From a virus, in the IMG/VR virus record IMGVR_UViG_3300046171_000113, positions 1 through 62,993 of that record: a DNA stretch of 62,993 bases; one strand, 5' to 3'. Shown in pieces: positions 4,241 through 62,993 of this stretch. A program made the translations under genes and the position numbers. Numbering within the stretch: position 1 is the first letter of the stretch; every line of letters starts with the position of its first letter. The notes below the pieces were generated by a model. The model saw only the letters and a program-made list of their open reading frames with translations, was not told where the DNA came from and did not search any database.

Positions 4241-4255
4241 AAAGGAGAAAGATTT

Positions 4256-20644: not shown

Positions 20645-22104
20645 ATGAATGTATTAGACAGTAAAATTAATTGGTATAAGTTTAAAACAAGTCCTTATAA
20701 ACATCAACTTGATGCTTTAGAACGGTCGTGGGATAAAGAATACTTTGCGTACTTTATGGAAATGGGTACCGGTAAATCTAAAGTATTAATTGATAATGCA
20801 GCTATGCTTTATAACCAAGGCAAGATAAATGGTTTACTTCTTATTGCACCAAAAGGTGTATATAAAAATTGGTATGAAGATCAGATACCTACACACTTAC
20901 CTGACTATATAAATAAAAAAGTTGTTCTTTGGAAAAGTTCAGACAAGACTCATGAACAAACAAAAAAACTAAATTCATTATTTGAAACAGGTGAAGACCT
21001 ACACATATTAGTTATGAATGTAGAATCTTTATCTACTAAAAAAGGTGTAGCGTTTGCAGAAAAGTTTTTAAATTCTCACAGAGCATTAATGGCTATTGAT
21101 GAGTCTACTACAATAAAAAATCCAGAAGCCAAACGTACAAAAAATATTGTAACCTTGGTAAGCTTGCAACATACAGAAGAATACTTACAGGTTCACCGGT
21201 AACTAAATCACCACTAGACCTATACAAACAATGTGAGTTTTTAGAAGATGAACTATTAGGTTTTAATTCTTACTATGCATTTAGAACTAGATACGCTGTT
21301 ATGAGAACAGCAAACTTTAGTGGTCGATCTGTACAGATAGTTGTGGGTTATAGAAACCTAGATGAGTTAGCTGATAAACTAAAAGAATTTTCTTACCGTG
21401 TATTAAAAGATGAGTGTCTAGATTTACCTAAGAAAACGTTTATGAAACGAGAAGTGTTGTTGACACCAGAACAGACTAAGGCATATCTACAGATGCAGAA
21501 ACTAGCTCATGCTCAAATGAATGGTAAGATGATGTCTACAGCTACTGTGTTAACTCAGTTAATGAGACTACAGCAGATAACTTGTGGTCACTTTACAGCT
21601 GATGATGGCACCATACAAGAAATGCCAAACAACAGGGTAGGTGAACTACTTAATTTACTTGATGAGATAGAGGGTAAGGTTGTTATCTGGGCTCAGTTTC
21701 AAAGAGATGTACATAATATTATTAAAGTCTTATCTAAAGAATATGGAGAAGATTCTTTTGTAGATTATTATGGACTAACACCACAAGAAGAAAGACAGGA
21801 TAATATTAAAAAATTCCAGGACCCCGATTCTCCTGTCCGGTTTTTTATAGGAACTACTCAAACTGGTGGGTATGGTATCACACTTACAGCTGCATCAACT
21901 ATGATCTATTATTCTAATGGTTATGATCTAGAGAAAAGACAGCAATCAGAGGCTAGAATAGATCGTATTGGTCAAGAGTATCCAATGACTTATATTGATA
22001 TAGTAACAGAAGATACTATCGATACTAAAGTTGTAAAAGCTTTACGTAAAAAATTAAATATTGCCTCGGATATTATGGGCGAAGAATTAAAGACTTGGAT
22101 TTAA
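20645..22104 (+). CDS. SNF2-type DNA helicase/translocase (one frameshift)
   Basis: Superfamily 2 ATPase. MEMGTGKSKV (Walker A), LMAIDEST (DExx-type motif II), RRILTGSPVTK (motif III) and QSEARIDRIGQ (motif VI) are present. The frame shifts near 21152: reading one base over gives LGKLATYRRILTG and continues to the stop at 22104, so a single base is missing from the sequence. Full length would be about 486 aa. It is the only long + strand replication gene and ends converging with the late - strand genes. Confidence 0.88.
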
Positions 22105-29548: not shown

Positions 29549-30508
29549 TTATTTGATTTTTGTATCTTCGTCAAGTGGTTTGGCATGCTTTGCAGGTCGT
29601 GTACCTTGGTATAAATCATCAAAGAAACGACCACGATATAAGAACTCTCCAACGTGCGTAATAGTATCCATTACATATATATGAACTTTACCACCCATAT
29701 CTGTCCATTTTTGACAGAAACCAAAGTCTTCTCCAAAGTATCTTTTAGTTTTAAGATCATGCCAAGTATCAAACAAGTTATAAAAATTATCTTTCTTTTC
29801 TTCTTTGCCGTTAATATAGGTAGGTTGGTATATTTCTAATTCAGGGTGATTCTTAATCATGTCTTCAATAACATGTCTTTTAATTAACATACATCCAGTA
29901 GGTGCATGAGTTACTTCTATAATACCTTTGTCAGCTATAATGTTATACTGGTCTTCTACTTTAATTGGATAAGTAAAACCTGCTCTTGACATATCTTCTG
30001 CAGAAGTAATAGCATCTTCTTTGTTGTTTACTCTTCTCCATATTTTATTCCAATCCATCATCTTCATTGGATAAGGACATGCAATAACATCTTTGTCAGC
30101 CTTTAACATTTTTTCAATAGTAGAAAAACTAAAGTCAATATCAGAGTCTATAAATAATAAATGAGTGTATTTGTCTTTATGATTTAAAAATTCTGCTACA
30201 CTTAAATTTCTACCTTGTGTAACTAAAGAAGATTTTAACAAAGTAAAACTAACTAATATATTTCTTTGTAAACATTCTTGTTGAAATTTTAAAACAGCTT
30301 GACAATAATGCATAGACACATCGCTATGACAAGGAGTACAAACCATTATTTTATAAGGCGATCTACCACCTTCTCCGCCTACATTTATTTCAATCACATT
30401 ACTATCCCCTTCAACTTTATTAGTTTTTACAGTTTGATAAGTATCATTACTAGCTTCTGTTTTTTTATCTTCTTCAAACCAGATAGGTGTATTACTTAGT
30501 CTTGGCAC
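29549..30508 (-). CDS. GT-A-type glycosyltransferase, 319 aa
   Basis: Probably transfers a sugar from a nucleotide donor. YKIMVCTPCHSDVSMHY opens the fold, HLLFIDSDIDF gives the DxD metal site, followed by ACPYPMKMMDW and GEDFGFCQKW, as in Anp1/mannosyltransferase-like families found in phages. It overlaps the GT-B gene by 17 nt. The pair sits in the late virion operon, so the acceptor may be a virion or host surface component. Confidence 0.85.
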   Translation of the reverse strand: MPRLSNTPIWFEEDKKTEASNDTYQTVKTNKVEGDSNVIEINVGGEGGRSPYKIMVCTPCHSDVSMHYCQAVLKFQQECLQRNILVSFTLLKSSLVTQGRNLSVAEFLNHKDKYTHLLFIDSDIDFSFSTIEKMLKADKDVIACPYPMKMMDWNKIWRRVNNKEDAITSAEDMSRAGFTYPIKVEDQYNIIADKGIIEVTHAPTGCMLIKRHVIEDMIKNHPELEIYQPTYINGKEEKKDNFYNLFDTWHDLKTKRYFGEDFGFCQKWTDMGGKVHIYVMDTITHVGEFLYRGRFFDDLYQGTRPAKHAKPLDEDTKIK

Positions 30509-31439
30509 TAATTGCTCCTGTTAGAAATCTTGTCCATGATGTACCTATTTTATTCCAATTGTAATAAGCATTAACATAATCAGACTGAGTTTCTAAATGT
30601 TTATGTATAGTTTCTTCATGTAATATATTCGCTGAAGCTTCTATTGCGGAAGCAAATTTCATTGATAGCCTTCTTAAATTATTATCAAAAGGTATATACA
30701 TAGGAAATTCAGCACCTGTTTCAAACAAAGCACCAAGATTAGTTGTAACACAATATAATCCACCAGCCATACATTCTAATAAAGATATACAAGATGTTTC
30801 TTCAAAGATACTTGGGTATGCATACATATTATATTTATGCATATTACTTTTTATAAAACTATTTGGTTTATACCCTATGTAATTTACATTAGGTAGTTGT
30901 CTTGCTTGTTCATATAGTTCTGTGTATTCATGATCATTTTGATCAAAGAATTGTTTTCCATACACTTCACATGATGAATATACATCTAAAGTAATCAATG
31001 GATTCTTAACTAATTGCATTGCACCTAATAAAACAGATAATCCTCTCCAAGGTGTGTTTTGATGAATTATTCTAATAGGGTCACCTTGCTTATAAGGTTT
31101 TGCTTTTTGTATTTTATCTACACCATTTTTAATTACCAAACATTTTTCTGCAGGTAAACCAAACATCATTCTAAATTTTTCAAAAGTCCAATGAGAATTA
31201 AATACATACCAATCATACTTGTGATGATTAGATTTTTCTTGAAACCAAGGAGCTAAGTTAGGCTGATCGTATGAATTTTTTTGCCAAAGTATATTTACTT
31301 TGTTTGGATGTAACGGAATTTTTTCTGGCACAGAAGTTGTAATCTGTACTTGATCTAATAACTTTTTATCAACGTATTCTTCTAAATAGTTGAATTGTAA
31401 TTCTGTTCCACCCTTAGGGTTTTGGTTTCTTATTATCAT
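30492..31439 (-). CDS. GT-B-type (GT4-like) glycosyltransferase, 315 aa
   Basis: N-terminal GGTELQ, central IHQNTPWRGL and the C-terminal YPSIFEETSCISLLECMAGG (E-x7-E) are hallmarks of GT4-type retaining glycosyltransferases. Coupled with the GT-A-type gene downstream. Acceptor unknown. Confidence 0.88.
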   Translation of the reverse strand: MIIRNQNPKGGTELQFNYLEEYVDKKLLDQVQITTSVPEKIPLHPNKVNILWQKNSYDQPNLAPWFQEKSNHHKYDWYVFNSHWTFEKFRMMFGLPAEKCLVIKNGVDKIQKAKPYKQGDPIRIIHQNTPWRGLSVLLGAMQLVKNPLITLDVYSSCEVYGKQFFDQNDHEYTELYEQARQLPNVNYIGYKPNSFIKSNMHKYNMYAYPSIFEETSCISLLECMAGGLYCVTTNLGALFETGAEFPMYIPFDNNLRRLSMKFASAIEASANILHEETIHKHLETQSDYVNAYYNWNKIGTSWTRFLTGAISAKTK

Positions 31440-32097: not shown

Positions 32098-33107
32098 TAA
32101 TAATCAGTTCTTCCTCTACCAGTTCTATTACTTACTGGGCCACCAGTTGTTGCATTTATACCAAACCCTTGTCCTGAATCAAAAGATTGTCTACCATCAT
32201 CACCTCGTCCATAGTTAGTTGGTCCGTGTATGTTAGGATTATAATCGCTTTGTCCTTGTTTGTTAATTTTTTCTATTATTTTTTGTCTTTCTTTTTCTTT
32301 TCTTTTTTCTATTTTACTCTCAGTAATTGTATCAGCTATTTTATTTCTTCTATTAAATAACTTTTGAGCTTCATTTAATGTAACTATTCTACCTAATAAA
32401 TCAGTTTGAACTGGTCCCGTATATGTTCCCGCAAGAGCTTGTTCTATTTCCTCCTGACTTAATCCATATTTTTCAGATAAAGTATTTGCAATTGTACCTC
32501 GTCTTTTATCAAAAGTTTCATCAGTTATCATATTAGCGTTATATCCAGCCATAATACCTTCAGGTGTGTTATAATCATTTGTCACGACTCTTCCAATATT
32601 ATCTAACTGCACTCCAGCGCCTAATAATTCATTTTCTAAAATACCTCTTCTATTTGGAGGAAGCATTCCACCAATTAATTTTCCTGCTCCATAAACACCT
32701 AAAGCTGCAGGTATAAGTTGTCCACCTGTCATTAAACTCCCTGCTCCTAAAGCTACTTTAGATCCCATAGGTAAAGCTTTATATTTATCGTATAAACCCA
32801 TGACTCCTGTTCTAGGAGATCCTGGATAACCATAATCAGGTGTTCCTAAATTATCATCAGGATTAAATGGAAAAGGATTTACATAATTTCTAGAAGTTCT
32901 TGTCATATTTGGATCAGGATTATAAACACCATATCCATCTCCGTTGCCACCTGGTCTAGGTAATAATGGATCTACAAGAGTTTTATCCTCAGGTTCTACA
33001 GGTACTATAGGGCCAATGCTAGGCGGGGTAGGTTGAAAAATAGGTGATATGCTAGGCATCCCCTGGTTTAAATAGGCTTGAGCTAAATCAAATAAAGTGT
33101 TTGCCAT
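32097..33107 (-). CDS. Pro/Gly-rich virion protein, 336 aa
   Basis: N-terminal ~130 residues are Pro/Gly/Asn-rich and probably unstructured, then a hydrophobic Gly-rich segment (SKVALGAGSLMTGGQLIPAALG) and a charged helical part. Overlaps the 657-aa tail gene by one base. Probably an internal or tail-associated protein. Confidence 0.65.
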   Translation of the reverse strand: MANTLFDLAQAYLNQGMPSISPIFQPTPPSIGPIVPVEPEDKTLVDPLLPRPGGNGDGYGVYNPDPNMTRTSRNYVNPFPFNPDDNLGTPDYGYPGSPRTGVMGLYDKYKALPMGSKVALGAGSLMTGGQLIPAALGVYGAGKLIGGMLPPNRRGILENELLGAGVQLDNIGRVVTNDYNTPEGIMAGYNANMITDETFDKRRGTIANTLSEKYGLSQEEIEQALAGTYTGPVQTDLLGRIVTLNEAQKLFNRRNKIADTITESKIEKRKEKERQKIIEKINKQGQSDYNPNIHGPTNYGRGDDGRQSFDSGQGFGINATTGGPVSNRTGRGRTDY

Positions 33108-35080
33108 TATCTTCTTCCATCTGGTTGTGCATCTAATCTAAGTGTGCCATATCTCCATGACTCACCCACTGCTGTGTTTTCTATTTGAACAGAAACTAAT
33201 CTGCCTCTTGCTCTTGTATCTACCTTATCAGTCGTAGAAGTAATTGTAAAGGGTCCAAGTGGTGAGCTAACAGCCACGTCATCTGGATAACTACTTACAA
33301 ATAAAGTTACTTTAGCATTACCTGTTTGATATTTAAAATCAGGTATGAATCTTTTAACTGACATAAAAAATTCTCCATCACCTCTGTAATCAGCAACTCC
33401 TGTTGCCTGACCCAAGGCGCTCTTACGTGAAGTAATATCCCAATCTCCCGATCTAATAAAAGCATCTATAGAAGTTGTGCCTGAGCTATTGACTTGATCG
33501 GTTCCTACTTCATGAGCATAGTAAATACTAGCTCCATATTTATTTGTAATACCTAATATATCGGGAAATACAGGAGTACCGTTGTCTACATAATCAGTTG
33601 CATAAGGAGCATTAAATACCCCTTGATCTTGATACGTAGTTCTATCTAACGATGAAGTTGTCCAAACATTTTCTGAGTAATTATAAGTCACACATCTATC
33701 AACTTGATCAGATCCATCTTTTGGATAGAACCAGTTTATTTCTGTATACAAAGTATTAGGTGAGGAATAAATAACATCTCTTGAATCTAAATTAATTCCT
33801 AGGTTATCTCCATCTGTACTAAATACAAAATCTTCTACAAGAGATGGCAATGATTTAACTGTACCATCATAAGCAAAAAAACCACCTTCTGCTGACATCC
33901 ACCATACAGCACCGTTTGCATAAGACATAGCGTGTTGACCAATGCAACCACAATTGGTACCGACTTGTCTAACAGAAAAAGTAAAAGGTGGACCAACAAA
34001 TTGAATTACATAAGCTGCAACATCTGTTGATACAAAAATATAGTCTTTACCTTGTATAGCTGCTCTAATTTCATTTCCACTGTCTAATCTAAAAGTTCCT
34101 GCAGTATTAGTAGCAGTTGGAGCATATGTGTTTAAATCCTCTTGATTAGAAAATCTTACAAACATAGGGTCTTGTGTTGTAGGATCACCTATAGTTGTTT
34201 CTGTTCCAAAATGGAACACATGTCTATCTCTATCTGATACAATAGAAATTCTAGTAGCCGTTGGATTATTTGTTGTTTGAAAATTACTTGTTGATTGTGA
34301 TGCTCTTATGGTCCTAGCATTTGATGCTCCAGCGTTCCAAGTAAAAGTTTTGCCATTAAATATAGTTGCTACTAAAACTTCACCAAAGTTATCTAAACTC
34401 CAGTTGCCTGGATCCAGAGTCACGTTACTAATAGTTCTTTCAGTACCCCAAGTAGAATCTCCCCATAAATAAGTTCCCCAACCATAGCCACTTGTTTGAG
34501 TAGTTGGTCCAACTTCAATATAAGGATTAACAGTCGCTGCACCTGCTGCAGTCATACCAGATCCCCCTTCAGCTCTTACAGCCTGCACTGTAAATTTATC
34601 TACAGTTGCAACTGTTAAAATTTCATAAGCTACTTCTAATTCTGCAGCTGTAAAATCTGATGCTCCTGTAACAGTGACACCAGATAAAGTTATATATCTT
34701 CCAACAGCTAAACCATGTGATCCTTTATTAACAGTTAATACATTTGAACCATTAACTGTTGTTAAAGTACATCCTGTGATAGCTGTATCTAACGGTGTAA
34801 TATCAAAAAAATTATTACCATAATATAAGAATAAACCTTGAGATGTACCAATAGCTGAATATTTTTCCCCAGCGAAAGAGGTAAAAGAATGTTGTTTTCT
34901 AGCTGCTCCAGGTAAAGTTTTGGATGCTGCTGTAAGTTGAGACCAACCACCTATTTTTTCTGGTAATCCGTATCTAAATCTAACAAAATCACCATCTGTC
35001 CATTGCCCCTCAGCGCCAGATTCAGTGTCTTGTTTGTTAAAGCCAGGCTTGAAATTTAATTTTTGTAGCATATAATGCAT
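33107..35080 (-). CDS. Tail nozzle/stabilisation-type protein, 657 aa
   Basis: KLNFKPGFNKQDTESGA...GQWTDGDFVRFRYGLPEKIGGW is a start I recall from tail tube/stabilisation proteins of marine podoviruses, followed by a long beta-rich body. The translated start may be the MHYM or the MLQK methionine 9 nt later; the first lies within a palindromic promoter region. Function inferred from family memory and position. Confidence 0.7.
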   Translation of the reverse strand: MHYMLQKLNFKPGFNKQDTESGAEGQWTDGDFVRFRYGLPEKIGGWSQLTAASKTLPGAARKQHSFTSFAGEKYSAIGTSQGLFLYYGNNFFDITPLDTAITGCTLTTVNGSNVLTVNKGSHGLAVGRYITLSGVTVTGASDFTAAELEVAYEILTVATVDKFTVQAVRAEGGSGMTAAGAATVNPYIEVGPTTQTSGYGWGTYLWGDSTWGTERTISNVTLDPGNWSLDNFGEVLVATIFNGKTFTWNAGASNARTIRASQSTSNFQTTNNPTATRISIVSDRDRHVFHFGTETTIGDPTTQDPMFVRFSNQEDLNTYAPTATNTAGTFRLDSGNEIRAAIQGKDYIFVSTDVAAYVIQFVGPPFTFSVRQVGTNCGCIGQHAMSYANGAVWWMSAEGGFFAYDGTVKSLPSLVEDFVFSTDGDNLGINLDSRDVIYSSPNTLYTEINWFYPKDGSDQVDRCVTYNYSENVWTTSSLDRTTYQDQGVFNAPYATDYVDNGTPVFPDILGITNKYGASIYYAHEVGTDQVNSSGTTSIDAFIRSGDWDITSRKSALGQATGVADYRGDGEFFMSVKRFIPDFKYQTGNAKVTLFVSSYPDDVAVSSPLGPFTITSTTDKVDTRARGRLVSVQIENTAVGESWRYGTLRLDAQPDGRR

Positions 35081-35085
35081 TATAT
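35049..35085 (+). promoter_or_regulatory. Divergent promoter with 16-bp palindrome before the oxygenase genes
   Basis: TTGAAA (35049-35054), 16 nt, TATAAT (35071-35076) on the + strand fit a promoter for the oxygenase cluster. The -10 lies in the perfect palindrome ATATAATGCATTATAT (35070-35085), which also offers TATAAT on the - strand. A regulator binding it could control both directions. Confidence 0.55.
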
Positions 35086-35121
35086 AATAGTTTTATAGAG
35101 AATGAAAGATAGAAAATATAT

Positions 35122-35658
35122 ATGAAAACTACAGTGTTAAACAATATCCTTTCTGAAAAGGAATTATTTTTTATGTATAATCAAATTATAAGTAGTCCAA
35201 CATGGAAAATGAATGGTTTATCAGAACCCGCTAGAGGTTTTATGTCTTCACCTGTTTTAATAATTAAAGAATATAATGATTTAGTTACACATTATCCTTT
35301 TTATATTTGGGGACAAACCATAGTATATAGAATAGCAAAAATGTTAGAGAATAAAAATATAGGTATACCCACGACTGTAGAAAGAATGTGGTTTAATTGT
35401 ACTTATCATGGTAAGAAAACTCAACACTGGTTACATCGAGACGATGAAAAAGATTTAAAATTAAAATCAATTTTATTATTTATGACTCCTGTTTGGCAAC
35501 CAGATTGGAGAGGTTCTTTTTATATTGATGGTGAAGAATTTAAATTTAAACCAGGCAACGCGGTAGTGTTTGATTCAAATGAATATCACAAAGGAGAATC
35601 TCCTGAGTCGGAAACATATAATTGGCAAAGGATATGTTGTAATATAATAGTGGGATAA
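35122..35658 (+). CDS. 2OG-Fe(II) oxygenase-like protein 1, 178 aa
   Basis: Predicted dioxygenase that hydroxylates a substrate using 2-oxoglutarate, oxygen and Fe(II). Iron ligands HRD (His105/Asp107) and EYHKGE (His156), with Arg170 in the expected 2OG-binding place and the FKPGNAVVFDS element before the second His. First of seven consecutive genes of the same fold; its stop overlaps the next start (TAATG). Substrate unknown. Confidence 0.8.
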   Translation: MKTTVLNNILSEKELFFMYNQIISSPTWKMNGLSEPARGFMSSPVLIIKEYNDLVTHYPFYIWGQTIVYRIAKMLENKNIGIPTTVERMWFNCTYHGKKTQHWLHRDDEKDLKLKSILLFMTPVWQPDWRGSFYIDGEEFKFKPGNAVVFDSNEYHKGESPESETYNWQRICCNIIVG

Positions 35659-36266
35659 TGATTAATTTTATAGACAAAAATAATAAATTAGAAGAAACTA
35701 GAAGTAGCTTAACTATTACTTACCCTAGAACTGTAAGTATAATATTTGGTAATTACTCTTACCCAGATATAATTCATAATCTTATTATGGATATAAAAAA
35801 TAATTTAGATTCAAATATGAATAATTACACTAATGTAAAAGGTGGCATGACTAATTGGTATTATTTTTTAGATAATATTAATTTTAAAAACTTTTTTGCT
35901 TATTTAATAAATAAACATCAAACAACTAATCCACAACTTTTTGAATATTTTTTAGAAAGATATGAAGTTACAAATGCTTGGGGAAATGAAATAAAACCAA
36001 ATGATAGTTTAAATTATCATGCACACCCTTGTTGGCATGGAATTTTATATCTAACAAAAGGTTGTGAGTTACATTTACCAGAATTAAATATAAAAATAAC
36101 ACCTGAACCGGGAGACTATTATATATTTCCCTCTGAAATAGTACATGGTTTTGATAAATCTAAAGACGAAAATAATAGATACAGTTTAATTTTTAACATA
36201 GAACGACTTGATGAGTTTAGTTTTAAAAATAAAATAAAAGAAATAAATGAAAAACATAAAAAATAA
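35658..36266 (+). CDS. 2OG-Fe(II) oxygenase-like protein 2, 202 aa (HxH variant)
   Basis: C-terminal half has LNYHAHPCWHGILYLTKG, PGDYYIFPSEIVHGF and RYSLIFNI, the layout of the 2OG-FeII_Oxy_5-type family where HxH replaces HxD. Likely ligands His121, His123 and His163, with Arg174 for 2OG. AT-rich gene overlapping the next by 20 nt. Confidence 0.75.
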   Translation: MINFIDKNNKLEETRSSLTITYPRTVSIIFGNYSYPDIIHNLIMDIKNNLDSNMNNYTNVKGGMTNWYYFLDNINFKNFFAYLINKHQTTNPQLFEYFLERYEVTNAWGNEIKPNDSLNYHAHPCWHGILYLTKGCELHLPELNIKITPEPGDYYIFPSEIVHGFDKSKDENNRYSLIFNIERLDEFSFKNKIKEINEKHKK

Positions 36267-36849
36267 AACAATAAATTACCAATTTTTTCATTGGGGACCA
36301 TTTTTATATAAAACCACTTTAACTGAAGATGAATTAAAAGACATAAAAAATTTATGTGTTAAAGATCCTAAAAAAGACACAAGAAAAAATTTAGCTGGTC
36401 TAATTAAACACGAATATGACATTGACCCTAAAAAATTATTTCCAATACTATTACCTTATTTTGAAAGCTATGCAAAATCTTATCAAGATTATTCTGGTGA
36501 ATTTTTTGGAAAAGAATTAGAATTAGTTCGATCTTGGGTAAATTATATGACAAAATTTGAATCAAATCCTATTCATACTCATGGCGAAGATTTATCTTTT
36601 GTTATATTTACTAAAATCCCTAAAGAACTAAAACAAGAATGGAACGATACCATATCATCAGGGCAAAAACCCGGTGCTCTAAATTTTTTAATATCTTTAA
36701 ATAGTAAACAAAAATTTATTAATCAACGTACTTTTCAACCCGAAGAAAGAGACTTTTATATTTTTCCTTCTGATCTAAATCATTTTGTAACTCATTTTGA
36801 AACTAATGGTGAAAGAGTATCTATTTCAGGAAACTTAAAAATAAAATAG
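36247..36849 (+). CDS. 2OG-Fe(II) oxygenase-like protein 3, 200 aa (HxH variant)
   Basis: Same layout as protein 2: NPIHTHGEDLSFVIF (His110/His112), ERDFYIFPSDLNHFV (His179) and ERVSISGN (Arg190). The insertion between the two halves is longer. Starts inside the end of gene 2, so translation is probably coupled. Substrate unknown. Confidence 0.72.
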   Translation: MKNIKNKTINYQFFHWGPFLYKTTLTEDELKDIKNLCVKDPKKDTRKNLAGLIKHEYDIDPKKLFPILLPYFESYAKSYQDYSGEFFGKELELVRSWVNYMTKFESNPIHTHGEDLSFVIFTKIPKELKQEWNDTISSGQKPGALNFLISLNSKQKFINQRTFQPEERDFYIFPSDLNHFVTHFETNGERVSISGNLKIK

Positions 36850-36858
36850 AAGAAATAA

Positions 36859-37455
36859 ATGAAAGAAAAAACAGTTAATATAAATAATTTTATTGGAATA
36901 TATGACAACTATATTACAGAAGAAGAATGTGACAGGGCTATTAACTTATATGAAAATCAAAACAGATTTAATAATACTATTAATAGAATAGGTTTTGAAA
37001 AAGCATCTATCTTAGATAAACAAGATCAACAATATTTTGCAGCGCCACATAATATTAGCATATGGTGGGAAGAATTAAAAACTCTTATGATTAATTTTGA
37101 TATTGCTTGGAAACATTATGAAAAAAATGTAGGAGCTGCGGCAGCTTATGGAGTAGATGATTTTAAATATACTACTTTAAAAATTCAAAAAACTTTACCT
37201 ACTGAAGGATATCATATTTGGCATTTAGAACATAACAAAGGTTTTGATAACGAACCAAGAGCTTTTGTTTTTTCTGTATATTTAAATGATGTAGAAGAAG
37301 GTGGAGAAACAGAATTTTTACATTTTTCTAAAAGAGTAAAACCCAAAAAAGGTAGAATAGTTATTTGGCCCGCTGCTTTTCCTTACATTCATAGGGGTAA
37401 TCCACCATTGTCGGGTGAGAAATATATACTTACTTCTTGGTTAATGTTAAGATGA
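36859..37455 (+). CDS. Prolyl-hydroxylase-like 2OG oxygenase 4, 198 aa (HxE)
   Basis: GYHIWHLEHN gives His122-x-Glu124 in place of HxD; FSVYLNDVEEGGETEF and PKKGRIVIWPAAFPYIHRG (His178) then SGEKYILTSWL (Lys188) match prolyl-4-hydroxylase-type enzymes closely. HxE is a known but less common iron-binding form. It is the clearest P4H-type member of the array. Confidence 0.85.
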   Translation: MKEKTVNINNFIGIYDNYITEEECDRAINLYENQNRFNNTINRIGFEKASILDKQDQQYFAAPHNISIWWEELKTLMINFDIAWKHYEKNVGAAAAYGVDDFKYTTLKIQKTLPTEGYHIWHLEHNKGFDNEPRAFVFSVYLNDVEEGGETEFLHFSKRVKPKKGRIVIWPAAFPYIHRGNPPLSGEKYILTSWLMLR

Positions 37456-37973
37456 TAAAGATTATTAACAATTTTTTTGATGATAAGTTATTAGCAAATA
37501 TACAGAATCATATTACAACAAAATTACACTACACCCCTTGTTTCTTTGATAATAAAGAAAAGAATAAAGAGAACTATTATGGTAATAGATTTGTTTTATC
37601 TGATGATAAAAATTTATTAAATACATTTACTAAACAAGCGGAAAAAAAATTTAAAATAAAAATAAAAAAAATGCAAAATGATTCTGGTATAGATCTAAGA
37701 AACTTAGATCATTTTAACCCTCATCAAGACAGTGCAAAAGTAAATGTTTTAGTTATGTTAAAAGGACCTACAGCAGTTACTAATGGCACTGTTTTTTATA
37801 CAGGACCTGTAAATAAATGCGACTTAGATATTCATGTAGGATTTAGAGAAAATAGAGCCATATTATTTCCATCTAATTGGGTGCATTCTAATCATTTAAG
37901 TAAAGTTCCAAATCTTAGAAGATATACAGCTAGTTTGTTTATCACAGAATATGAAGAGTTAAACAATGATTAA
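37452..37973 (+). CDS. 2OG-Fe(II) oxygenase-like protein 5, 173 aa
   Basis: Start chosen at the ATG overlapping the previous stop (ATGA) rather than the upstream TTG. NPHQDSAKVNVLVML gives His91/Asp93, ILFPSNWVHSNH gives His145, and LRRYTASLF gives Arg157. Classical HxD...H...R arrangement. Overlaps gene 6 by 8 nt. Confidence 0.78.
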   Translation: MIKIINNFFDDKLLANIQNHITTKLHYTPCFFDNKEKNKENYYGNRFVLSDDKNLLNTFTKQAEKKFKIKIKKMQNDSGIDLRNLDHFNPHQDSAKVNVLVMLKGPTAVTNGTVFYTGPVNKCDLDIHVGFRENRAILFPSNWVHSNHLSKVPNLRRYTASLFITEYEELNND

Positions 37974-38465
37974 TTCATATAATTTATTTGCAGTTCGTAT
38001 GTCTCATGGAGTTTACCAATTCCAATAAATATACATAAAAAGATTTTAGAGTTTGTAAAACAAAACTATAAAGAGACACATAATATTTCTTGTGTAAATG
38101 GTTTTCAATATCATGATGATTTTGATGGCAAAAAAGAATTAAATGAATTTATAAATAAATATTTAGGAAATGTTCATAACTTAAAAATATATAATGGTTG
38201 GTTAAATGTTTTAGATAATAAATCTTACAATAAACCTCATTGTCATACAGGTAATCAAGTTACACATGCAGCTGTTTTATATCTTTCTAATAATAACAAT
38301 AATATTAACTTTGTAAAAGAAGGTGATGTATTTGAAATACAACCAAAACTTTTTGATTATCTAATCTTTCCATTTAATTTATTTCATTATGTTTTGCCAG
38401 AAGAACGTTCTGAAAAAAGAATATGCTACGCTTTTAATTTAACAGAAGTAACTAATGTCCTTTGA
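37966..38465 (+). CDS. 2OG-Fe(II) oxygenase-like protein 6 (one frameshift)
   Basis: Starts MINSYNLFAVRMS, then the frame breaks near 38005; one base over it continues LPIPINIHKKILEFVKQ to the stop at 38463-38465 with PHCHTGNQVTHAAVLYL (HxH), YLIFPFNLFHYV and EKRICYAFNL. It belongs with proteins 2 and 3. The 500-nt length fits a single missing base. Probably functional in the true genome. Confidence 0.72.
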
Positions 38466-39042
38466 TCATAAAATAACCGACCTTAAATTTCATATAGATA
38501 AATTAGTACCGAAAGATGTTTGTCAATATTTTATTGATTTTTATGAAAATAATACTCAACATTCAAAACCTGAAACAAGTTATAAATATCAAACTAAAAA
38601 AAAGGAATATGATGATTATGGCTGTATCAATTTAACTGCTCTTTATGATAAAGATAAAGCATTTGAAGAACCATTAAATATAGCTAAAAAATACATACAA
38701 ATAATGATAACTAATTATGAATTGTATATTAAAAATAATATTTGTCCTACGTTTGATTTAACAACTATGTCTCAATCAAGTAATATTCGTATTTTAAAAT
38801 ATGAAAAAGGAAATCAAATTAAAGATCATAGTGATGTAGATTTTAATATAAGAGCCTCTTGTACTTTAAATTTAAACGAAGATTATGAAGGTGGAGATTT
38901 TAGATTTTTTGATGGTCAAATAAAACATTCTTTTAAAACAGGAGATGCTATGTTATTTCCAGCAGAACCTATTTGGATTCACGGGACTGAACCCGTTACA
39001 AAAGGTATTAGATATTCTATTAATTGTTTTTTACACCAATAA
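38455..39042 (+). CDS. Prolyl-hydroxylase-like 2OG oxygenase 7, 195 aa
   Basis: KDHSDVDFNIRASCTLNL (His125/Asp127), YEGGDFRFFDG, TGDAMLFPAEPIWIHGTEP (His176) and KGIRYSINCFL (Arg186) give a complete classical 2OG oxygenase core. Last gene of the array; ends one base before the end of the next - strand gene, a tail-to-tail junction. Confidence 0.85.
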   Translation: MSFDHKITDLKFHIDKLVPKDVCQYFIDFYENNTQHSKPETSYKYQTKKKEYDDYGCINLTALYDKDKAFEEPLNIAKKYIQIMITNYELYIKNNICPTFDLTTMSQSSNIRILKYEKGNQIKDHSDVDFNIRASCTLNLNEDYEGGDFRFFDGQIKHSFKTGDAMLFPAEPIWIHGTEPVTKGIRYSINCFLHQ

Positions 39043-39402
39043 TTATGAAGAATAAGAAGTAGGTCTTGCACCTAATCTAGCAATTTTTTCAGCTTCAGTT
39101 TCATCCTCAACAACATCATTATCCCAGTCACTTTGCAATCTAGTTAAATGTGCAGAGTCCCATAAATCTATAAATTGTTGAAAATCTCCAAGATTAGCAT
39201 CGGCATAAGTACCGTTTGGAGTTGTGTCTCTATGTTCTACTTCATCTGTAGTTACTGGAGTTTGATATTGCAAAGCCCAAATATTTGAAAATTTAGGTTG
39301 ACTCCAAAAAGAATCGTTATCAATTATATAACCAATCTTAGAAATTTGGTTAACAATTAATTTATCATCAAATACTACTGTCCAATTTGCGTTAGTTGCC
39401 AT
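39043..39402 (-). CDS. Hypothetical tail-region protein, 119 aa
   Basis: Begins MATNANWTVVFDDKLIV and ends with a helical acidic segment (DNDVVEDETEAEKIARLGARP). Between the fibre genes and the oxygenase array; likely a fibre accessory or chaperone, by position only. Confidence 0.65.
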   Translation of the reverse strand: MATNANWTVVFDDKLIVNQISKIGYIIDNDSFWSQPKFSNIWALQYQTPVTTDEVEHRDTTPNGTYADANLGDFQQFIDLWDSAHLTRLQSDWDNDVVEDETEAEKIARLGARPTSYSS

Positions 39403-39410
39403 TTTTTCTC

Positions 39411-39980
39411 CTACGTTTTTATAATATAAATTACTGTTAAATAAGGTTGTAAAACTGATGTTGCATCTCCACTAAAAGTTGCACTCATATTATGCGAGTG
39501 ACCCGCTGAACCCCCAGTTGTATAATAAGTTTGTTGTGTTGTAGGCCCTGAAGCTAGTGCAAAACGAATATATTGAGTACCAGGAGAATTACCTCCAAGT
39601 ATGTCGTGTTGGTGAGCTGCAACTTGTGCTATTGATATAGCAGTATTTGCTGTTGAACCACCAACGTTTCCAGTTGAAGCTACAGTATCTGCTCCACCTG
39701 TTGAAGCTAAAGCTTTATTATTAGATTTACTTACAGCTACTTTATTTTGTAAATCAGGAACTAAAAAAGTAGATGAGCCATCACCCGCACCATAAGTTGT
39801 GCCTACCGCTGCAAATAATGCAGAGTAAGTTGATCTTGAAACTGCTTGACCGTTACATTCTAGAAATCCTGTTGGCACTGAAGAAGTAGACCACGGCACA
39901 ATAGTAGCTGTAGGAATTCCCTCGATACCTGTAAGGTTTGCTCCAGTGAAATCGTATTTTGTTGCTTCGTAATTTGACAT
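39411..39980 (-). CDS. Tail-collar-domain fibre protein, 189 aa
   Basis: Start chosen at MSNYEATK, which has GGAG upstream. IVPWSTSSVPTGFLECNGQAVSR...YSALFAAVGTTYGAGDGSSTFLVPDLQNKV is the phage tail collar domain, and AAHQHDILGG with GSAGHSHNMS forms the His-rich receptor-end seen in short fibres. Probable receptor-binding fibre tip. Confidence 0.88.
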   Translation of the reverse strand: MSNYEATKYDFTGANLTGIEGIPTATIVPWSTSSVPTGFLECNGQAVSRSTYSALFAAVGTTYGAGDGSSTFLVPDLQNKVAVSKSNNKALASTGGADTVASTGNVGGSTANTAISIAQVAAHQHDILGGNSPGTQYIRFALASGPTTQQTYYTTGGSAGHSHNMSATFSGDATSVLQPYLTVIYIIKT

Positions 39981-39981
39981 A

Positions 39982-40683
39982 TTATTTCTCCGTGTAAGTC
40001 CATCCTGTTGTAGCATCTCCAGAATATACTAATCCAAAAGCTGCACCTTGTGTATTAACAACAAGATCAGATGCTGCATTAGCTATATTAGAAGAGTTTC
40101 TACCAACAGTCAATGCGTTAGTATTGAAATCATAACCTTGATCTACAAAATGTACTTCATCTCCTGTAGCAGGTGAGGCTGGAAGCGTTACTGTAACTGC
40201 TCCGCTATTTGTATTTACTAAAAGTTTAGCACCAGCTTGAACTGTTTCTGCTGCTGATACTGCTCTCCAGTTTCTTTGTTCATGAAGTTTTACAACATTT
40301 GTTCCATCAGAATATAATGTGTAATTATTTCCTTCACATAATAATACACCTGTTCCAGATGCAGTTTTAAAAGTTAAAGTATGTTCAGCATGATTACATG
40401 CGTCTTGAACTAGGTAAGTTTTTTCAACTGAGTTTGGAATACTAACTGTTAAGTTAGAAGCTAAAGTTCCTGTTAATTTAATAACTTCATTTTTACCATT
40501 TGATAAAGCACCATTAGTAAAAGTTAAAGATCTAGCAGCGTTAGTAATATTAAAAGTAGTAAAACCACCAATTGCTTGTTCTAGAATTAAAAGGTTAGTG
40601 TTTGTAATTTGTCCCCAAGTTCCTGAGTTTTCTCCAGTTGCTTGTACTGTAAGTTTTAAATTTGCTGATGTTGAATTCGCCAT
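39982..40683 (-). CDS. Tail fibre protein, 233 aa
   Basis: MANSTSANLKLTVQATGENSGTWGQITNTNLLILEQAIGG is a fibre N-terminus common in marine phages; the rest is beta-rich with Thr/Asn/Ser repeats. Two bases before the collar-domain gene. Probably shaft or attachment part of the same fibre. Confidence 0.75.
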   Translation of the reverse strand: MANSTSANLKLTVQATGENSGTWGQITNTNLLILEQAIGGFTTFNITNAARSLTFTNGALSNGKNEVIKLTGTLASNLTVSIPNSVEKTYLVQDACNHAEHTLTFKTASGTGVLLCEGNNYTLYSDGTNVVKLHEQRNWRAVSAAETVQAGAKLLVNTNSGAVTVTLPASPATGDEVHFVDQGYDFNTNALTVGRNSSNIANAASDLVVNTQGAAFGLVYSGDATTGWTYTEK

Positions 40684-57584: not shown

Positions 57585-59065
57585 TAATAATAAGTCCTCT
57601 GTTGTGGAGGCATTTTTTCCTCCTCGTAATCTTCAGGGTGATTTATTAAACCTCCCTGTCTAAATCTCATTACAGCTTGGGTCATTGAGTCCACTAGATC
57701 ATCATGGTCTCCATAAGGAAAAGCTGCACATTCCTCAATGACTTCTTGTGCGAAGTCCATATCTTTGGGCGCCCATATCAGTCCCGACTCAAAGAGCGGA
57801 GATACTGCGTTTACCCTCGTGTGTTTATCGTTACCACGAGATGGTGAAAAATTTATAACAGGAATACCCATCTTACGCAACTCATAAGTTAAGGGAAGCC
57901 CTGATGCCTTACTCTCGATTATAACTGTTTCCGGATTCCAGTAGCCGTATTGCTCCATTGCAATACGCCGGAGTTCAGGAAATTCATATCTACCTTTTAA
58001 TGCATCAACCAATATTAAACTTGGTGGTGAGTCTTCATTTTCTTGAAACACGCCCCAGGTTGTAATAGCTGAGTAGTCGGCAGTTTCTTTTTTCATAAAA
58101 GCTGTATCGTAAGATTGTATAATATGTTGAAGCGGTGGCATTTCATCCTCTTCCCAATCTTTCCACCACTCACGTTTTATTAAGGCACCTTCTTCTGAAG
58201 TAGGATTCTGCATATACTGTGCATTCCATTTAGTCAGGGGAATACTAGCTTTGACAGATTCTAAATCATCTAACTTCCAATACTCTGGCCAAACAGGTTT
58301 ACCTGATGGAAGTATTGCAGGAAATTCTACAATCTCCCACTGATCAGCTTTAACTCCTTTTTGAGCACTTAATAATCTACCTGTTAAATCTTTTTGATTC
58401 CATCTTGTCATGATAACAACAATTGATCCACCAGGTTGAAGACGTTGACGTGGACCAGAAGTATACCACTCATAAGTTCTATCAAGAGCTTGATTGTTCA
58501 TAGCATCTTGTTCAGTATGTGGGTCATCAATAATTAGTAGATCAGCTCCCCGTCCTGTAATAGCAGAGCCAACACCGGCAGCATAATATTCACCACCTTG
58601 TTCGGTTTCCCATTTACCAGCAGCTTGAGAATCAGGATTAAGTCTAGTTTTAAAAACTTGTTTATATTCTGGTGAGTCCATCAAAGATTTAGCCTTACGA
58701 CCAAACCTTACAGATAATTCAGTTGTGTTAGTTGATTGAATAATTTTTAGTTTAGGATTTCTACCAACCATCCATGCAGGTAAAAGATAAGAACCAAATT
58801 CAGACTTGGTATGTCTGGGTGGCATATTAATAATTAATCTTTTAATTTTACCTTGAGCAAGTTGATCAAACTTATTTGCAATTCTTTGGTGATGTTTACC
58901 TTCAATAAAATCAGGCCAAACATGTTTTACAAAATCCATAAAGTTATTTTGTATACCAGCAGTCTTTTTCTTTTCACCATACTGATTAGCCAATAATGAA
59001 AATTGTCTTCTCACATCTGCAGGTAACTTATCGAAGTTCTTTAGTTTATCTTTATCTATCTTCAT
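57584..59065 (-). CDS. terL: Terminase large subunit, complete (right copy), 493 aa
   Basis: ATP-driven packaging motor with nuclease. Residues 82-88 PPRHTKS form an atypical Walker A, 176-183 LLIIDDPH the Walker B with catalytic acid, then RQRLQPGGSIVVIMTRWNQKD (motif III region), and nuclease acids in LVDALKGRYEF, VIIESKASG and DDLVDSMTQAV. Terminase_6-type. Intact, while the left copy is frameshifted and cut. First gene of the late operon. Confidence 0.95.
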   Translation of the reverse strand: MKIDKDKLKNFDKLPADVRRQFSLLANQYGEKKKTAGIQNNFMDFVKHVWPDFIEGKHHQRIANKFDQLAQGKIKRLIINMPPRHTKSEFGSYLLPAWMVGRNPKLKIIQSTNTTELSVRFGRKAKSLMDSPEYKQVFKTRLNPDSQAAGKWETEQGGEYYAAGVGSAITGRGADLLIIDDPHTEQDAMNNQALDRTYEWYTSGPRQRLQPGGSIVVIMTRWNQKDLTGRLLSAQKGVKADQWEIVEFPAILPSGKPVWPEYWKLDDLESVKASIPLTKWNAQYMQNPTSEEGALIKREWWKDWEEDEMPPLQHIIQSYDTAFMKKETADYSAITTWGVFQENEDSPPSLILVDALKGRYEFPELRRIAMEQYGYWNPETVIIESKASGLPLTYELRKMGIPVINFSPSRGNDKHTRVNAVSPLFESGLIWAPKDMDFAQEVIEECAAFPYGDHDDLVDSMTQAVMRFRQGGLINHPEDYEEEKMPPQQRTYY

Positions 59066-59116
59066 TTGAAAAATTTTTTCTAGAAAATTTTTACACTATT
59101 TTTTTAAAAAGTAAAA

Positions 59117-59174
59117 AAGTATTATAAGGCTTTAAATGTATGAAAGCTGGCATAAATACAAACTATTGGGACCC
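59117..59174 (-). promoter_or_regulatory. Conserved block upstream of terL, right copy
   Basis: Aligns with 1391-1450: AAAGGGGTCCCA, TTTCATACA, TTTAAAG and here a full TATAAT hexamer on the - strand. Candidate late promoter with an activator site, or a packaging signal. Confidence 0.45.
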
Positions 59175-59268
59175 CTTTTATAAAAATAAAAAAACCTTTT
59201 TGTAAAAAAATCAAAACCCATAATGGGTCTGGTACCTCTATCATACATCTTAAATTCTCTTGATGCCT

Positions 59269-59659: not shown

Positions 59660-59986
59660 CTATTCTGTCACACCCTCAACCCTTTGAATAATATTTCTTG
59701 GACCCCACCTATCATCACTAGTTACCTTGCGATAACCTTGGCTCTCTCGTCTGTGTCTGATAAACTCAATCGGTCGACCATGTTCTATATTCTTCATGTT
59801 AACTGATAACCAATCTAATTTACATGATTGACTACAAAAGAATTTATCTGAGTCTGAATACCAATTCTGATGGTCCATGTTACAGTATGCATATCGCCCT
59901 CTAACTACACCTCTAGATTTTAGAAATCTATCTTGTGTAGGGTTTTCATGACAGGTTGGTCCTTGGCAAAAATGTTTATTACTCAT
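59660..59986 (-). CDS. Cys-rich putative zinc-binding protein, 108 aa (right copy)
   Basis: Near-identical to the left-copy protein (1821-2156) in the Cys-rich body, with a different C-terminus (VTSDDRWGPRNIIQRVEGVTE). Start taken at MSNKHF, overlapping the membrane peptide's stop. Function unknown. Confidence 0.7.
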   Translation of the reverse strand: MSNKHFCQGPTCHENPTQDRFLKSRGVVRGRYAYCNMDHQNWYSDSDKFFCSQSCKLDWLSVNMKNIEHGRPIEFIRHRRESQGYRKVTSDDRWGPRNIIQRVEGVTE

Positions 59987-60054
59987 GCTACTACCACCAA
60001 TCCCATAATTAAACCAAAGAAACCAACGCAACAATAAAATTCAAAGCTTGTCAT
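59983..60054 (-). CDS. 23-aa hydrophobic membrane peptide (right copy)
   Basis: Identical to 2153-2224, again joined to its neighbours by TAATG and ATGA overlaps. Predicted single membrane span. Confidence 0.55.
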   Translation of the reverse strand: MTSFEFYCCVGFFGLIMGLVVVA

Positions 60055-60245
60055 TAATACCTCACTTTCCAACTGCCTTTGGCAGTTCTATATCCCTCTG
60101 CGTCATCATCAAAATAAGTCATTAGATTTGCACCTGCTTTGCTTGTCCAATATCTGCACTTGTCTGTCCAAGTTCCATTTCTTGTGATGTGTTTCTTATC
60201 CTTGTTAGAATAGTATGTGATTTTAAATTTAGTGTTTTCTTGCAT
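60054..60245 (-). CDS. Hypothetical protein, 63 aa (right copy)
   Basis: Identical to the protein at 2224-2415; same start choice based on AAAGGT. First gene of the coupled trio. Confidence 0.7.
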   Translation of the reverse strand: MQENTKFKITYYSNKDKKHITRNGTWTDKCRYWTSKAGANLMTYFDDDAEGYRTAKGSWKVRY

Positions 60246-60266
60246 TTCTACCTTTCTGTTATGTAT

Positions 60267-60298
60267 GGGAGTATATACCAATACTCCCATAATGTCAA
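60267..60298 (-). promoter_or_regulatory. Consensus promoter with operator-like inverted repeat (right copy)
   Basis: Same as 2437-2468: TTGACA, 17 nt, TATACT, with GGGAGTAT/ATACTCCC across the -10. Confidence 0.75.
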
Positions 60299-60301
60299 CC
60301 C

Positions 60302-61270
60302 TTAATTTATACTTTCTTCATATTTTTTTCTAGCTAATATCTTCGCCTCTCTTGATTGATGTTTATTCTTCATGCCCTTAATCATACTTGCAAGGTTGCT
60401 TGGATTGTAGATAGTCAAACCTGTTGAGTTAGTTCTAATTAACTCTGCCTCATCAACTTGTATTCCAAGTTCAGTTGCAAGTTCTATCCCCTCACTCAAA
60501 TACCTGTATGCTTTCAATCCAATTTTTAATTGATCGCATTGTTTTTGAATTGTATCAATCCAAGTTTGGTGTTTTGATACAACATTACCTTTTGCAATTC
60601 GCCAATCATTAAATGTTTCGTACTCATCTTTGGTACAGGCTATTGCTCTTGATCTGCAATAAGATGTTCCAATAACATCAAGATAGTATTGGTCATCAAA
60701 TGTTTTTGTCATACCATTGTGGTCGCCATTTGAATAACTATGACTACGACTATGACCAAGTGCTTTTGAACACTCGTCAATATGTTTTGTTTTGTGTGGG
60801 TTATCTTTGTTTTCATTTTGTTGAGCATAGATATCTGGGTTGCAATCCATAGCTTTTAAATCTTCTCGGTAATATGCAAACGCAAATTTCTTTCCATCCT
60901 CATCACTATACTCACTACCATTTAGATTGCCAAACAAACCAAAATCAAAATGAGATTTAGTTTCTTTGATATCGCCATCCTCATCTTTGTCCTCACTATG
61001 AGCAAAGTAAAAGCATTTATCTTTTGCAACAACATCACAAGGACTTCCATATTTCTTTTTGAAAGTTCTAAGAACAGAAACATCTTCTGGTGGATATGAT
61101 CTTTCAACAACTTGCTTTGCAAGTTTGTGTGCTATGTCATAATGATAATCAACACTCTCTCTTGCTGACAAGAAATCTTCTCGTTCTTGTGTGTCCTCGT
61201 TCTCAAAGACATTTTTCATTTTATTAAAGAGTTTGTTTCGCAACTCTGTATTCATTCTTATTTTTTGCAT
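60302..61270 (-). CDS. Hypothetical protein, 322 aa, intact (right copy)
   Basis: Soluble, charged protein: N-terminal helices (FNKMKNVFENEDTQEREDFL), a DVVAKDKCFYFAHSEDKDEDGD segment, and a His/Ser-rich middle (SRSHSYSNGDHNG). No enzymatic motif found. Largest early gene of the small-gene cluster, under two consecutive promoters, so probably made early and in quantity. Function unknown. Confidence 0.8.
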   Translation of the reverse strand: MQKIRMNTELRNKLFNKMKNVFENEDTQEREDFLSARESVDYHYDIAHKLAKQVVERSYPPEDVSVLRTFKKKYGSPCDVVAKDKCFYFAHSEDKDEDGDIKETKSHFDFGLFGNLNGSEYSDEDGKKFAFAYYREDLKAMDCNPDIYAQQNENKDNPHKTKHIDECSKALGHSRSHSYSNGDHNGMTKTFDDQYYLDVIGTSYCRSRAIACTKDEYETFNDWRIAKGNVVSKHQTWIDTIQKQCDQLKIGLKAYRYLSEGIELATELGIQVDEAELIRTNSTGLTIYNPSNLASMIKGMKNKHQSREAKILARKKYEESIN

Positions 61271-61302
61271 TTTTGCCTTTCGTTTTTGTTAAACATAATC
61301 CT

Positions 61303-61331
61303 AATATATCCTATATTATATAATCTGTCAA
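61303..61331 (-). promoter_or_regulatory. Promoter of the 322-aa gene (right copy)
   Basis: TTGACA, 17 nt, TATATT; identical to 3472-3500. Confidence 0.65.
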
Positions 61332-61413
61332 TCCCTTAAATAAAAAAACTTTCAACCTGTACGTGCATGGTTTTTTAATATATATACTAACCACCATCCC
61401 CAGCCACCGTCCA

Positions 61414-61442
61414 AGTATATAGGATAATTTGGGATATGTCAA
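61414..61442 (-). promoter_or_regulatory. Second upstream promoter (right copy)
   Basis: TTGACA, 17 nt, TATACT with TTATCCTA before the -10; identical to 3583-3611. Confidence 0.65.
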
Positions 61443-61536
61443 GAAAATAAAAAATATTTATTTTTGTATGTGCCTTAATTCTGCCTTATTTATCCTATAT
61501 ACTCCTAATATGTTTAATCTAACAAAACGAGGTAAA

Positions 61537-61698
61537 ATGACAGATAGAGAAACTATCGATATGGTCAAAGGTTTGACCGATGCAGGAAATAGTACAATGG
61601 AAATAATTAAAATGCAAAAAGAATTAATCGACCTTTTATCTAAAAGAGTTGGAATTCTAGAAGAGTTTGTATTTAGAGATGTTAGAAAGAAAGCTTAA
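61537..61698 (+). CDS. Hypothetical protein, 53 aa (right copy)
   Basis: Identical to 3706-3867; start at MTDRET with GAGG upstream. Confidence 0.65.
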   Translation: MTDRETIDMVKGLTDAGNSTMEIIKMQKELIDLLSKRVGILEEFVFRDVRKKA

Positions 61699-61808
61699 TG
61701 GAAACTGAACAATTAAAAAGAATTGCGGATGCCCTTGAAGAGGTCATTCGTATGGTGAAAGAAGACCAAGAAAGAACTAAAAAATATTTAGAAAAAGAGA
61801 AATCTTAA
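61698..61808 (+). CDS. Hypothetical coiled-coil peptide, 36 aa (right copy)
   Basis: Identical to 3867-3977, coupled to the previous gene through TAATG. Confidence 0.6.
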   Translation: METEQLKRIADALEEVIRMVKEDQERTKKYLEKEKS

Positions 61809-61817
61809 TCTAAATCT

Positions 61818-61850
61818 GTAGCGTCCTGGAAGAAAGCCATTGGACGCTAC
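61818..61850 (+). other. Hairpin 1 (right copy)
   Basis: Same 9-bp perfect stem as 3987-4019. Confidence 0.75.
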
Positions 61851-61909
61851 TCAATCGCAAGTTGCATCATCCAACACTGGTGCAACTTGCGATTGAATTT
61901 ATTTTTTGT
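61851..61909 (+). terminator. Rho-independent terminator (right copy)
   Basis: Same 16-bp perfect stem and T-rich tail as 4020-4078. Confidence 0.8.
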
Positions 61910-61913
61910 TTTG

Positions 61914-62040
61914 GGTCAAGGCTCAAGCTTCAAGCAGCAAGCCACAAGCTGGTCAATTGGTCTTGGACGCTATGCGCGGCACGCGTTAGGGATAATTCCG
62001 GGTGAGACCTACCGGAAACCAGCAAGCAACAAGCAGCTTG
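61914..62040. repeat. CAAGC-type short repeats, first block (right copy)
   Basis: Identical to 4083-4209. Confidence 0.7.
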
Positions 62041-62071
62041 ACAAGATAAAATTTATAGTGTATAGGATAAT
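62038..62071 (+). promoter_or_regulatory. Promoter of the Gp88-like gene (right copy)
   Basis: TTGACA followed by TATAGGATAAT, as at 4207-4240, with two single-base differences in the spacer. Confidence 0.6.
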
Positions 62072-62086
62072 AAAGGAGAAAGATTT

Positions 62087-62686: not shown

Positions 62687-62801
62687 TCATGACACATGTT
62701 TTTAAACATCCAAAATTTTACAGAATCCCTAGGGATAAATCGGATCAGGTCATTAGCAAGAGCGAACGCGACGGCGAAAGTGAGCGTGCACCTGGTCCGG
62801 G

Positions 62802-62937
62802 CCACAAGCAACAAACCTCAAGCAACAAGCAACAAGCGGGTGAGGCTCAAGCCTCAAGCTACAAAGACTCAAGCAGCAAGTAACAAGCCTCAAGCCCCAG
62901 GGCGCAAGGCTCAAGCTTCAAGCCACAAGCGTCAAGC
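62802..62937. repeat. CAAGC heptamer repeat array (right copy)
   Basis: Same array as 4977-5112; the window stops about 55 nt after it, inside the nuclease gene region. Confidence 0.85.
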
Positions 62938-62993
62938 TCCATGATATCCTTCCCCTTATAAAGTTTTACAAGGTTAAGGGAGAGGGCCTTAAC

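Follow-up and report, generated by a model that had tools for sequence, protein, structure and literature searches.

In marine phages, 2-oxoglutarate (2OG)-dependent Fe(II) oxygenases are among the 'auxiliary metabolic genes' reported most often, and the question of their substrates dates from at least 2010. Sullivan et al. (2010, PMC3037559) described cyanophages with multiple 2OG oxygenase genes together with carbamoyltransferase, prnA and 'ferrochelatase-domain' genes, and proposed roles in nitrogen sensing or repair. For HTVC023P-type pelagiphages, Wittmers et al. (2022, PMC9599517) reported eight non-orthologous 2OG families, often beside 'ferrochelatases', with the 2OG genes 'frequently nearby ... 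(although not adjacent)'. In a time series from the Western English Channel, seasonal phages were enriched in both 2OG and 'ferrochelatase' (phrog_2954) genes (PMC11561400). Here we analyse an array of seven consecutive 2OG-type oxygenase genes (g1 to g7, Table 1) in the virus contig IMGVR_UViG_3300046171_000113, whose full 62,993 bases are called the window below.

The HTVC023P-type pelagiphages (HTVC023P gp65-67 and gp71) resemble the window in lineage, in gene families (PF13640, PF13759, phrog_61/81/274/2954) and in the genomic region involved. In HTVC027P, gp72-74 are three oxygenases, orthologous to g5, g4 and g2, which occupy the slot of the array and share its orientation; of these, gp73 is the only one named in the available text of the HTVC027P transcriptome paper (PMC12753301). 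Unlike the non-adjacent genes of Wittmers et al., however, the seven genes are contiguous in the window, and up to eight are contiguous in its relatives. T4-like cyanophages share the superfamily and the PHROG families, and some of them also carry a carbamoyltransferase and a PrnA-type halogenase (PMC3037559). The nine 2OG copies of cyanophage S-SZBM1 (PMC9146016) are scattered through the genome, unlike a single-slot operon that runs against the late genes. 2OG genes in pelagiphages are already published, whereas in the open-access literature we found no description of the slot, of its shuffled, mosaic content or of its transferase and halogenase partners.

A fixed slot with shuffled contents

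Our results show a hypervariable modular slot in HTVC027P-type pelagiphages, of which the array represents one state. Relatives were gathered with the flanking 657-aa protein (80 loci) and with g7 and g3 as queries, profiles were rebuilt for all 2OG types found, and a cassette was defined as the content between the right-flank proteins (a 119-aa protein and the collar protein) and the 657-aa protein. Gene groups were defined at 40% identity, as a broader run merged the g4 and g7 types. The 102 non-redundant complete cassettes contained 1-8 oxygenases in 76 different orders, and comprised about 48 gene groups, 32 of them of 2OG type. About half of these cassettes came from the g7 and g3 queries, which introduces a bias to large arrays. 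The unbiased set consists of the 50 cassettes found via the flank query, with the window's near-identical contig left out. In this set, cassettes with 1, 2, 3, 4, 5 and 6 oxygenases numbered 8, 18, 10, 6, 7 and 1, respectively, with a mode of two. Seven oxygenases are the upper tail of cassette sizes, and the largest cassettes hold eight (loci L094-L096). The g4 group was present in 49 of the 50 unbiased cassettes and forms a near-constant core.

The orientation and spacing of the genes were maintained across the cassettes. Of the 379 oxygenase open reading frames (ORFs) located between the flanks, 368 ran opposite to the flanking genes, and most of the same-strand exceptions came from a few loci in which, as in HTVC023P, the oxygenases share the direction of the tail genes. 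Neighbouring cassette genes overlap at three quarters (75%) of their junctions, and 91% of the junctions are within 25 nt. In the window, the coordinates, strand and spacing reported in an initial annotation of the sequence were confirmed, with overlaps of 1 (g1/g2), 20 (g2/g3), 4 (g4/g5), 8 (g5/g6) and 11 nt (g6/g7) and a gap of 9 nt between g3 and g4. These overlaps and the shared strand support its description of a tightly coupled seven-gene operon opposite to the late genes, as the minus strand holds the terminase, portal, capsid, tail and collar genes. The array has a GC content of 25.8%, compared to 35.5% in the remainder of the window.

A short non-coding leader directly precedes g1. 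Its core, AGTTTTATAGAGAATGAAAG, is shared by 89 distinct relatives, whichever gene comes first in their cassettes, and occurs as a single copy in the window. The promoter-like region just upstream is likewise conserved in relatives with a different first cassette gene. A scan against the consensus only found 43 promoter-like sites in the AT-rich region where 33 were expected. The conserved leader is therefore more telling than the promoter-like site, as sites of this kind are common in this AT-rich stretch. A scan of the region for intrinsic terminators found none beyond chance.

Cassette content turned over even among phages with very similar flanks. When the 657-aa proteins were 95-98% identical, the mean Jaccard similarity of cassette content was 0.33, against 0.26 in distant phages, and it rose only above 98% identity, to 0.80 (ten pairs). 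This bears on the earlier suggestion that the set successively hydroxylates one target. A fixed, ordered seven-step pathway is disfavoured by the turnover. Because content changes even at 95-98% identity of the flank, the enzymes more likely make interchangeable, additive modifications.

In the relatives, the slot also carries other enzymes. These include carbamoyltransferases of the NodU/CmcH type (PF16861/PF02543; Carbam_trans_C E 4e-57), flavin-dependent tryptophan halogenases (Trp_halogenase PF04820, E 2.5e-90), methyltransferases, JmjC/cupin-type proteins and a DUF6817-2OG fusion. A sulfotransferase-like family showed a weak Sulfotransfer_2 (PF03567) match, below the cut-off, in one member (E 0.0015), and HKNGxxS-like and IRxPYxRF motifs conserved across 15 members. 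According to their families, these enzymes would modify hydroxyl, amine or aromatic positions. In some cassettes, a small ParB-N-like gene (L107:2025-2396 and relatives) stands repeatedly before a methyltransferase at their start.

Family, fold and metal site of the oxygenases

By family and predicted fold, all seven proteins are members of the 2OG-Fe(II) oxygenase superfamily; Pfam places five of them there, a PHROG match with a weak Pfam match another, and the predicted fold the remaining one. Profile searches of each protein, which the initial annotation had proposed as a check, gave Pfam matches above the curated cut-off for g2, g3 and g6 (PF13759) and for g4 and g7 (PF13640). For g1, the PF13640 match was sub-threshold (E 0.001) and was accompanied by a match to phrog_274. 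For g5, no Pfam 2OG family matched, and the family evidence was its match to phrog_274. Among the other PHROG families, phrog_81 matched g2, g3 and g6, phrog_61 matched g4 and g7, and phrog_274 also matched g4. The predicted structure of g5, obtained as an AlphaFold2 family model (23 sequences, predicted local distance difference test (pLDDT) score 91), matched 2OG oxygenases in the PDB with a Foldseek probability of 1.00. The matches include PiuC, PHD2, prolyl-4-hydroxylase (P4H with EF-Tu), Tpa1 and OGFOD1, with protein hydroxylases abundant among them. Sequence searches of the PDB with g7, g3, the g2 profile and the phrog_2954 profile gave no convincing match.

The iron-binding His pair and the distal Arg or Lys noticed earlier were confirmed, with HxD motifs in g1, g5 and g7, HxE in g4, and HxH in g2, g3 and g6. 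Every protein also contains a distal His followed downstream by Arg, or by Lys in g4, and all these residues are invariant or nearly so across non-redundant relatives (n = 14, 41, 25, 111, 24, 8 and 64 for g1 to g7, respectively). Accordingly, g1, g4, g5 and g7 contain the 2-His-1-carboxylate triad HxD/E...H with a distal basic residue, near-invariant in each family alignment. In contrast, g2, g3 and g6 do not have the carboxylate of the facial triad, and their HxH is kept without exception among 41, 25 and 8 non-redundant relatives, respectively. A three-His site without the classical carboxylate does not fix the metal or the cosubstrate, and we file these proteins as members of PF13759 (in Pfam a 'putative 2OG-Fe(II) oxygenase') rather than as proven 2OG oxygenases.

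Profile-profile comparison linked g4 with g7 (94-95%) and g2 with g3 and g6 (74-96%), while control families reached at most about 2%. The families of g1, g5 and phrog_2954 were linked moderately (27-70%). At least three subfamilies can thus be distinguished (g4-g7; g2-g3-g6; more weakly g1-g5), in line with the earlier view that the array mixes subfamilies and is not a recent duplication. In cellular organisms, most relatives of g4 are stand-alone genes of marine gammaproteobacteria with ~30% identity; in the two loci examined for a clue to the substrate, the metabolic surroundings were unremarkable.

Two PHROG labels need attention. The phrog_2954 'ferrochelatase' proteins of the cassettes are about 174 aa long with an invariant HxD...H, and a ferrochelatase identity (labels phrog_2954 and phrog_3531, on cassette genes of relatives) was rejected, as the tested members had no Pfam match at all. 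The top PDB matches of a phrog_2954 model (pLDDT 90) were 2OG prolyl/PKHD-type hydroxylases, for example 3dkq (E 7.6e-8) and 4iw3 (template modelling (TM) score 0.71). By its predicted fold, the 'ferrochelatase' partner gene of pelagiphages would be a 2OG oxygenase. Scenarios of iron insertion into heme that are based on this partner therefore need review. Similarly, the label 'DNA endonuclease V' of phrog_274 is probably wrong for the branch of g1, g5 and 023Pt_psg01 URG13117, since g5 is predicted to fold as a 2OG oxygenase and not as an endonuclease V. At least in 023Pt_psg01, the gaps between oxygenase genes are thus partly made by annotation, because the intervening 'ferrochelatase' and 'endonuclease V' genes are of 2OG type.

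Table 1. Positions of the array genes, control elements, flanking genes and related cassette genes (window coordinates unless a locus of a relative, L, is named)
Feature	Position	Strand	Remarks
g1, 178 aa, HxD 2OG-type oxygenase	35122..35658	+	phrog_274; weak PF13640; H105, D107, H156, R170 invariant
g2, 202 aa, PF13759 type, HxH	35658..36266	+	31.9 bits (cut-off 27), phrog_81; H121, H123, H163, R174 invariant
g3, 200 aa, PF13759 type, HxH	36247..36849	+	PF13759 E 1.9e-13; phrog_81 E 7e-28
g4, 198 aa, PF13640 type, HxE	36859..37455	+	Pfam, PHROG; near-universal cassette member
g5, 173 aa (ATG start), HxD 2OG-type oxygenase	37452..37973	+	phrog_274; predicted fold; H91, D93, H145, R157 invariant
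g6, PF13759 type, HxH	37966..38465	+	Pfam; frameshifted in this record, intact (166 aa) in five other contigs
g7, 195 aa, PF13640 type, HxD	38455..39042	+	Pfam, PHROG, motif alignment
Promoter-like site TTGAAA-16-TATAAT	35049..35076	+	sigma-70-like, 11 of 12; overlaps start of divergent tail gene
Non-coding leader (41 nt), core AGTTTTATAGAGAATGAAAG	35081..35121	+	directly before g1
Left flank, 657-aa virion structural protein	33107..35080	-	phrog_3287; 90% identical to HTVC027P gp75
Right flank of slot	39043..40016	-	119-aa protein 39043-39402; tail-collar protein 39411-40016
Tryptophan-halogenase homologues	L173:3173-4594, L179:1902-3344, L192:5999-7420, L185:4003-5124, L200:734-2053		inside or beside cassette
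phrog_2954 members	L006:671-1192 and 21 related loci		also HTVC023P gp67 and 023Pt_psg01 URG13120

Possible function of the cassette

The explanation that we favour, with some reservation, is that the slot holds a combinatorial tailoring cassette, in which oxygenases hydroxylate a common target and transferases decorate it. The enzymes would be co-expressed behind one leader. With O2, Fe(II) and 2OG, they would oxidise, by hydroxylation or in another way, the side chains or sugars of a single exposed target that belongs to the phage or lies adjacent to it. Transferases might then cap the new hydroxyls, so that each phage would carry different chemical decorations. The fast turnover of the cassettes might reflect selection for diversity, either in receptor recognition or in evading host countermeasures. 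As a first guess, the target could be a tail or receptor-binding protein, because the position of the slot and the mix of halogenase, hydroxylases and sulfotransferase fit a polypeptide best. In natural-product clusters, halogenases, 2OG oxygenases and carbamoyl-, sulfo- and methyltransferases act in combination on one scaffold. The cassettes may be likened to such tailoring sets in the type of chemistry, a likeness in kind only, as they have no visible enzyme that makes a scaffold.

Several observations speak against a tailoring cassette aimed at the tail. Its orientation opposite to the late genes could mean that it is expressed at another time than tail assembly, and the available text of the HTVC027P transcriptome paper gives no expression class for gp72-74 (PMC12753301). 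In the open-access papers searched, we found no record of a virion protein modified by phage 2OG enzymes. Cassette content was not correlated with the sequence of the flanking proteins (Spearman -0.003 for the right-flank protein and -0.09 for the 657-aa protein), and co-evolution of the cassette with these two tail proteins therefore gains no support. Transferases are in the minority, with carbamoyltransferases in 2, sulfotransferases in 2 and methyltransferases in 1 of the 50 unbiased cassettes. Furthermore, the fold of g5 would also suit small-molecule enzymes such as SnoN and phytanoyl-CoA hydroxylase. A broader formulation, which we hold more loosely, is that of a chemical-diversification island: a fixed slot that reshuffles dozens of oxygenase families, halogenases and transferases, and that might provide strain-specific decoration of the tail or another exposed target.

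Alternatively, the cassette might alter the envelope of the infected host, in its lipopolysaccharide or in other glycans and lipids, for instance to exclude superinfecting phages, in which case the shuffling would track the diversity of hosts or competitors. The carbamoyl-, sulfo- and methyltransferases of the slot are in line with this explanation, since glycans are commonly decorated with hydroxyl, carbamoyl, sulfate and methyl groups, and a glycosyltransferase gene (phrog_2170, 30492-31439) lies in the same late module. However, the tryptophan-halogenase family suits aromatic rings rather than glycans, and the slot is located among tail genes. The benefit would also be brief for a lytic phage, and no signal of an integrase or lysogeny was seen, although none was searched for. 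We therefore consider modification of the host surface unlikely.

A similarly low probability is given to the view that the genes are independent auxiliary metabolic genes, which either act on different host metabolites or proteins, or jointly draw down 2OG and so shift the nitrogen sensing of the host. Such a role in nitrogen sensing has been proposed for cyanophages (Sullivan et al., 2010, PMC3037559), the genes are listed as auxiliary metabolic genes by Wittmers et al. (2022, PMC9599517), and no common substrate is known. Yet, independent functions would leave the single slot, the orientation, the leader, the strong coupling and the company of tailoring enzymes unexplained. Moreover, one enzyme would suffice to draw down 2OG, rather than a shuffled set of about 32 families.

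Oxidation of nucleic acids is quite improbable. According to this explanation, AlkB- or TET-like enzymes would repair or hypermodify phage DNA or RNA, with transferases acting on hydroxymethylated bases. Carbamoyltransferases are indeed known in DNA hypermodification systems, some PHROG labels read 'DNA endonuclease V', and earlier work put 2OG genes of cyanophages close to repair genes. However, the endonuclease label conflicts with the 2OG fold predicted for g5, no TET/JBP or AlkB Pfam match was found among the array proteins, and the slot sits in the tail module. Returning to the tailoring cassette, a single interchangeable operon beside the tail genes, with partners that would modify hydroxyls and rings, makes the long-standing substrate question directly testable.

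Gene g6, the record and its surroundings

In the initial annotation, g6 had been taken as a full reading frame. In this record, however, the frame starting at ATG 37966 ends after ~20 codons and the other 160 codons are read in a different frame, which places a frameshift within about 37990-38030. The same seven genes are found in five other contigs, with 99.8-99.98% identity over the array and an intact g6. The frameshift of this record may reflect either an error of assembly or genuine variation. The annotation had also stated that its observation would fall if the array were absent from all related genomes and its borders were not spanned by reads; several of the five contigs span both borders, and because these contigs are independent the array is no assembly artefact. 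An artefact of over-called motifs or misassembly has next to no probability: the frameshift of g6 and the imperfectly overlapping ends of the record might have suggested it, but it is refuted by these contigs as well as by the family and fold evidence for 2OG oxygenases.

The record is a podovirus closely related to Pelagibacter phage HTVC027P (57,595 bp; host HTCC1062), its closest cultured relative. Membership of the HTVC027P-like pelagiphages is indicated by shared structural genes and gene order, with syntenic flanks and the high identity of the 657-aa protein (Table 1), relatives of which are annotated as 'stabilization protein'. The g4 protein is 81% identical to its HTVC027P counterpart. 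The same flanking genes occur in two single-cell genomes, one labelled Pelagibacteraceae (L203) and the other Alphaproteobacteria (L200), which is consistent with a host of the SAR11 group, the most common bacteria in the ocean, and may represent a host link.

The ends of the record overlap imperfectly, 1-1457 with 57726-59182 (79%) and 1843-5168 with 59676-62993 (96.6% identity). The contig apparently extends beyond a single genome length (~57.8 kb), with two strains or variants joined at its ends. In the late module, at 29549-31439, the glycosyltransferase-like gene mentioned above adjoins a phrog_1574 gene. Two more plus-strand ORFs (185 and 267 aa) lie at 20645-22104, amid a region that is otherwise on the minus strand.

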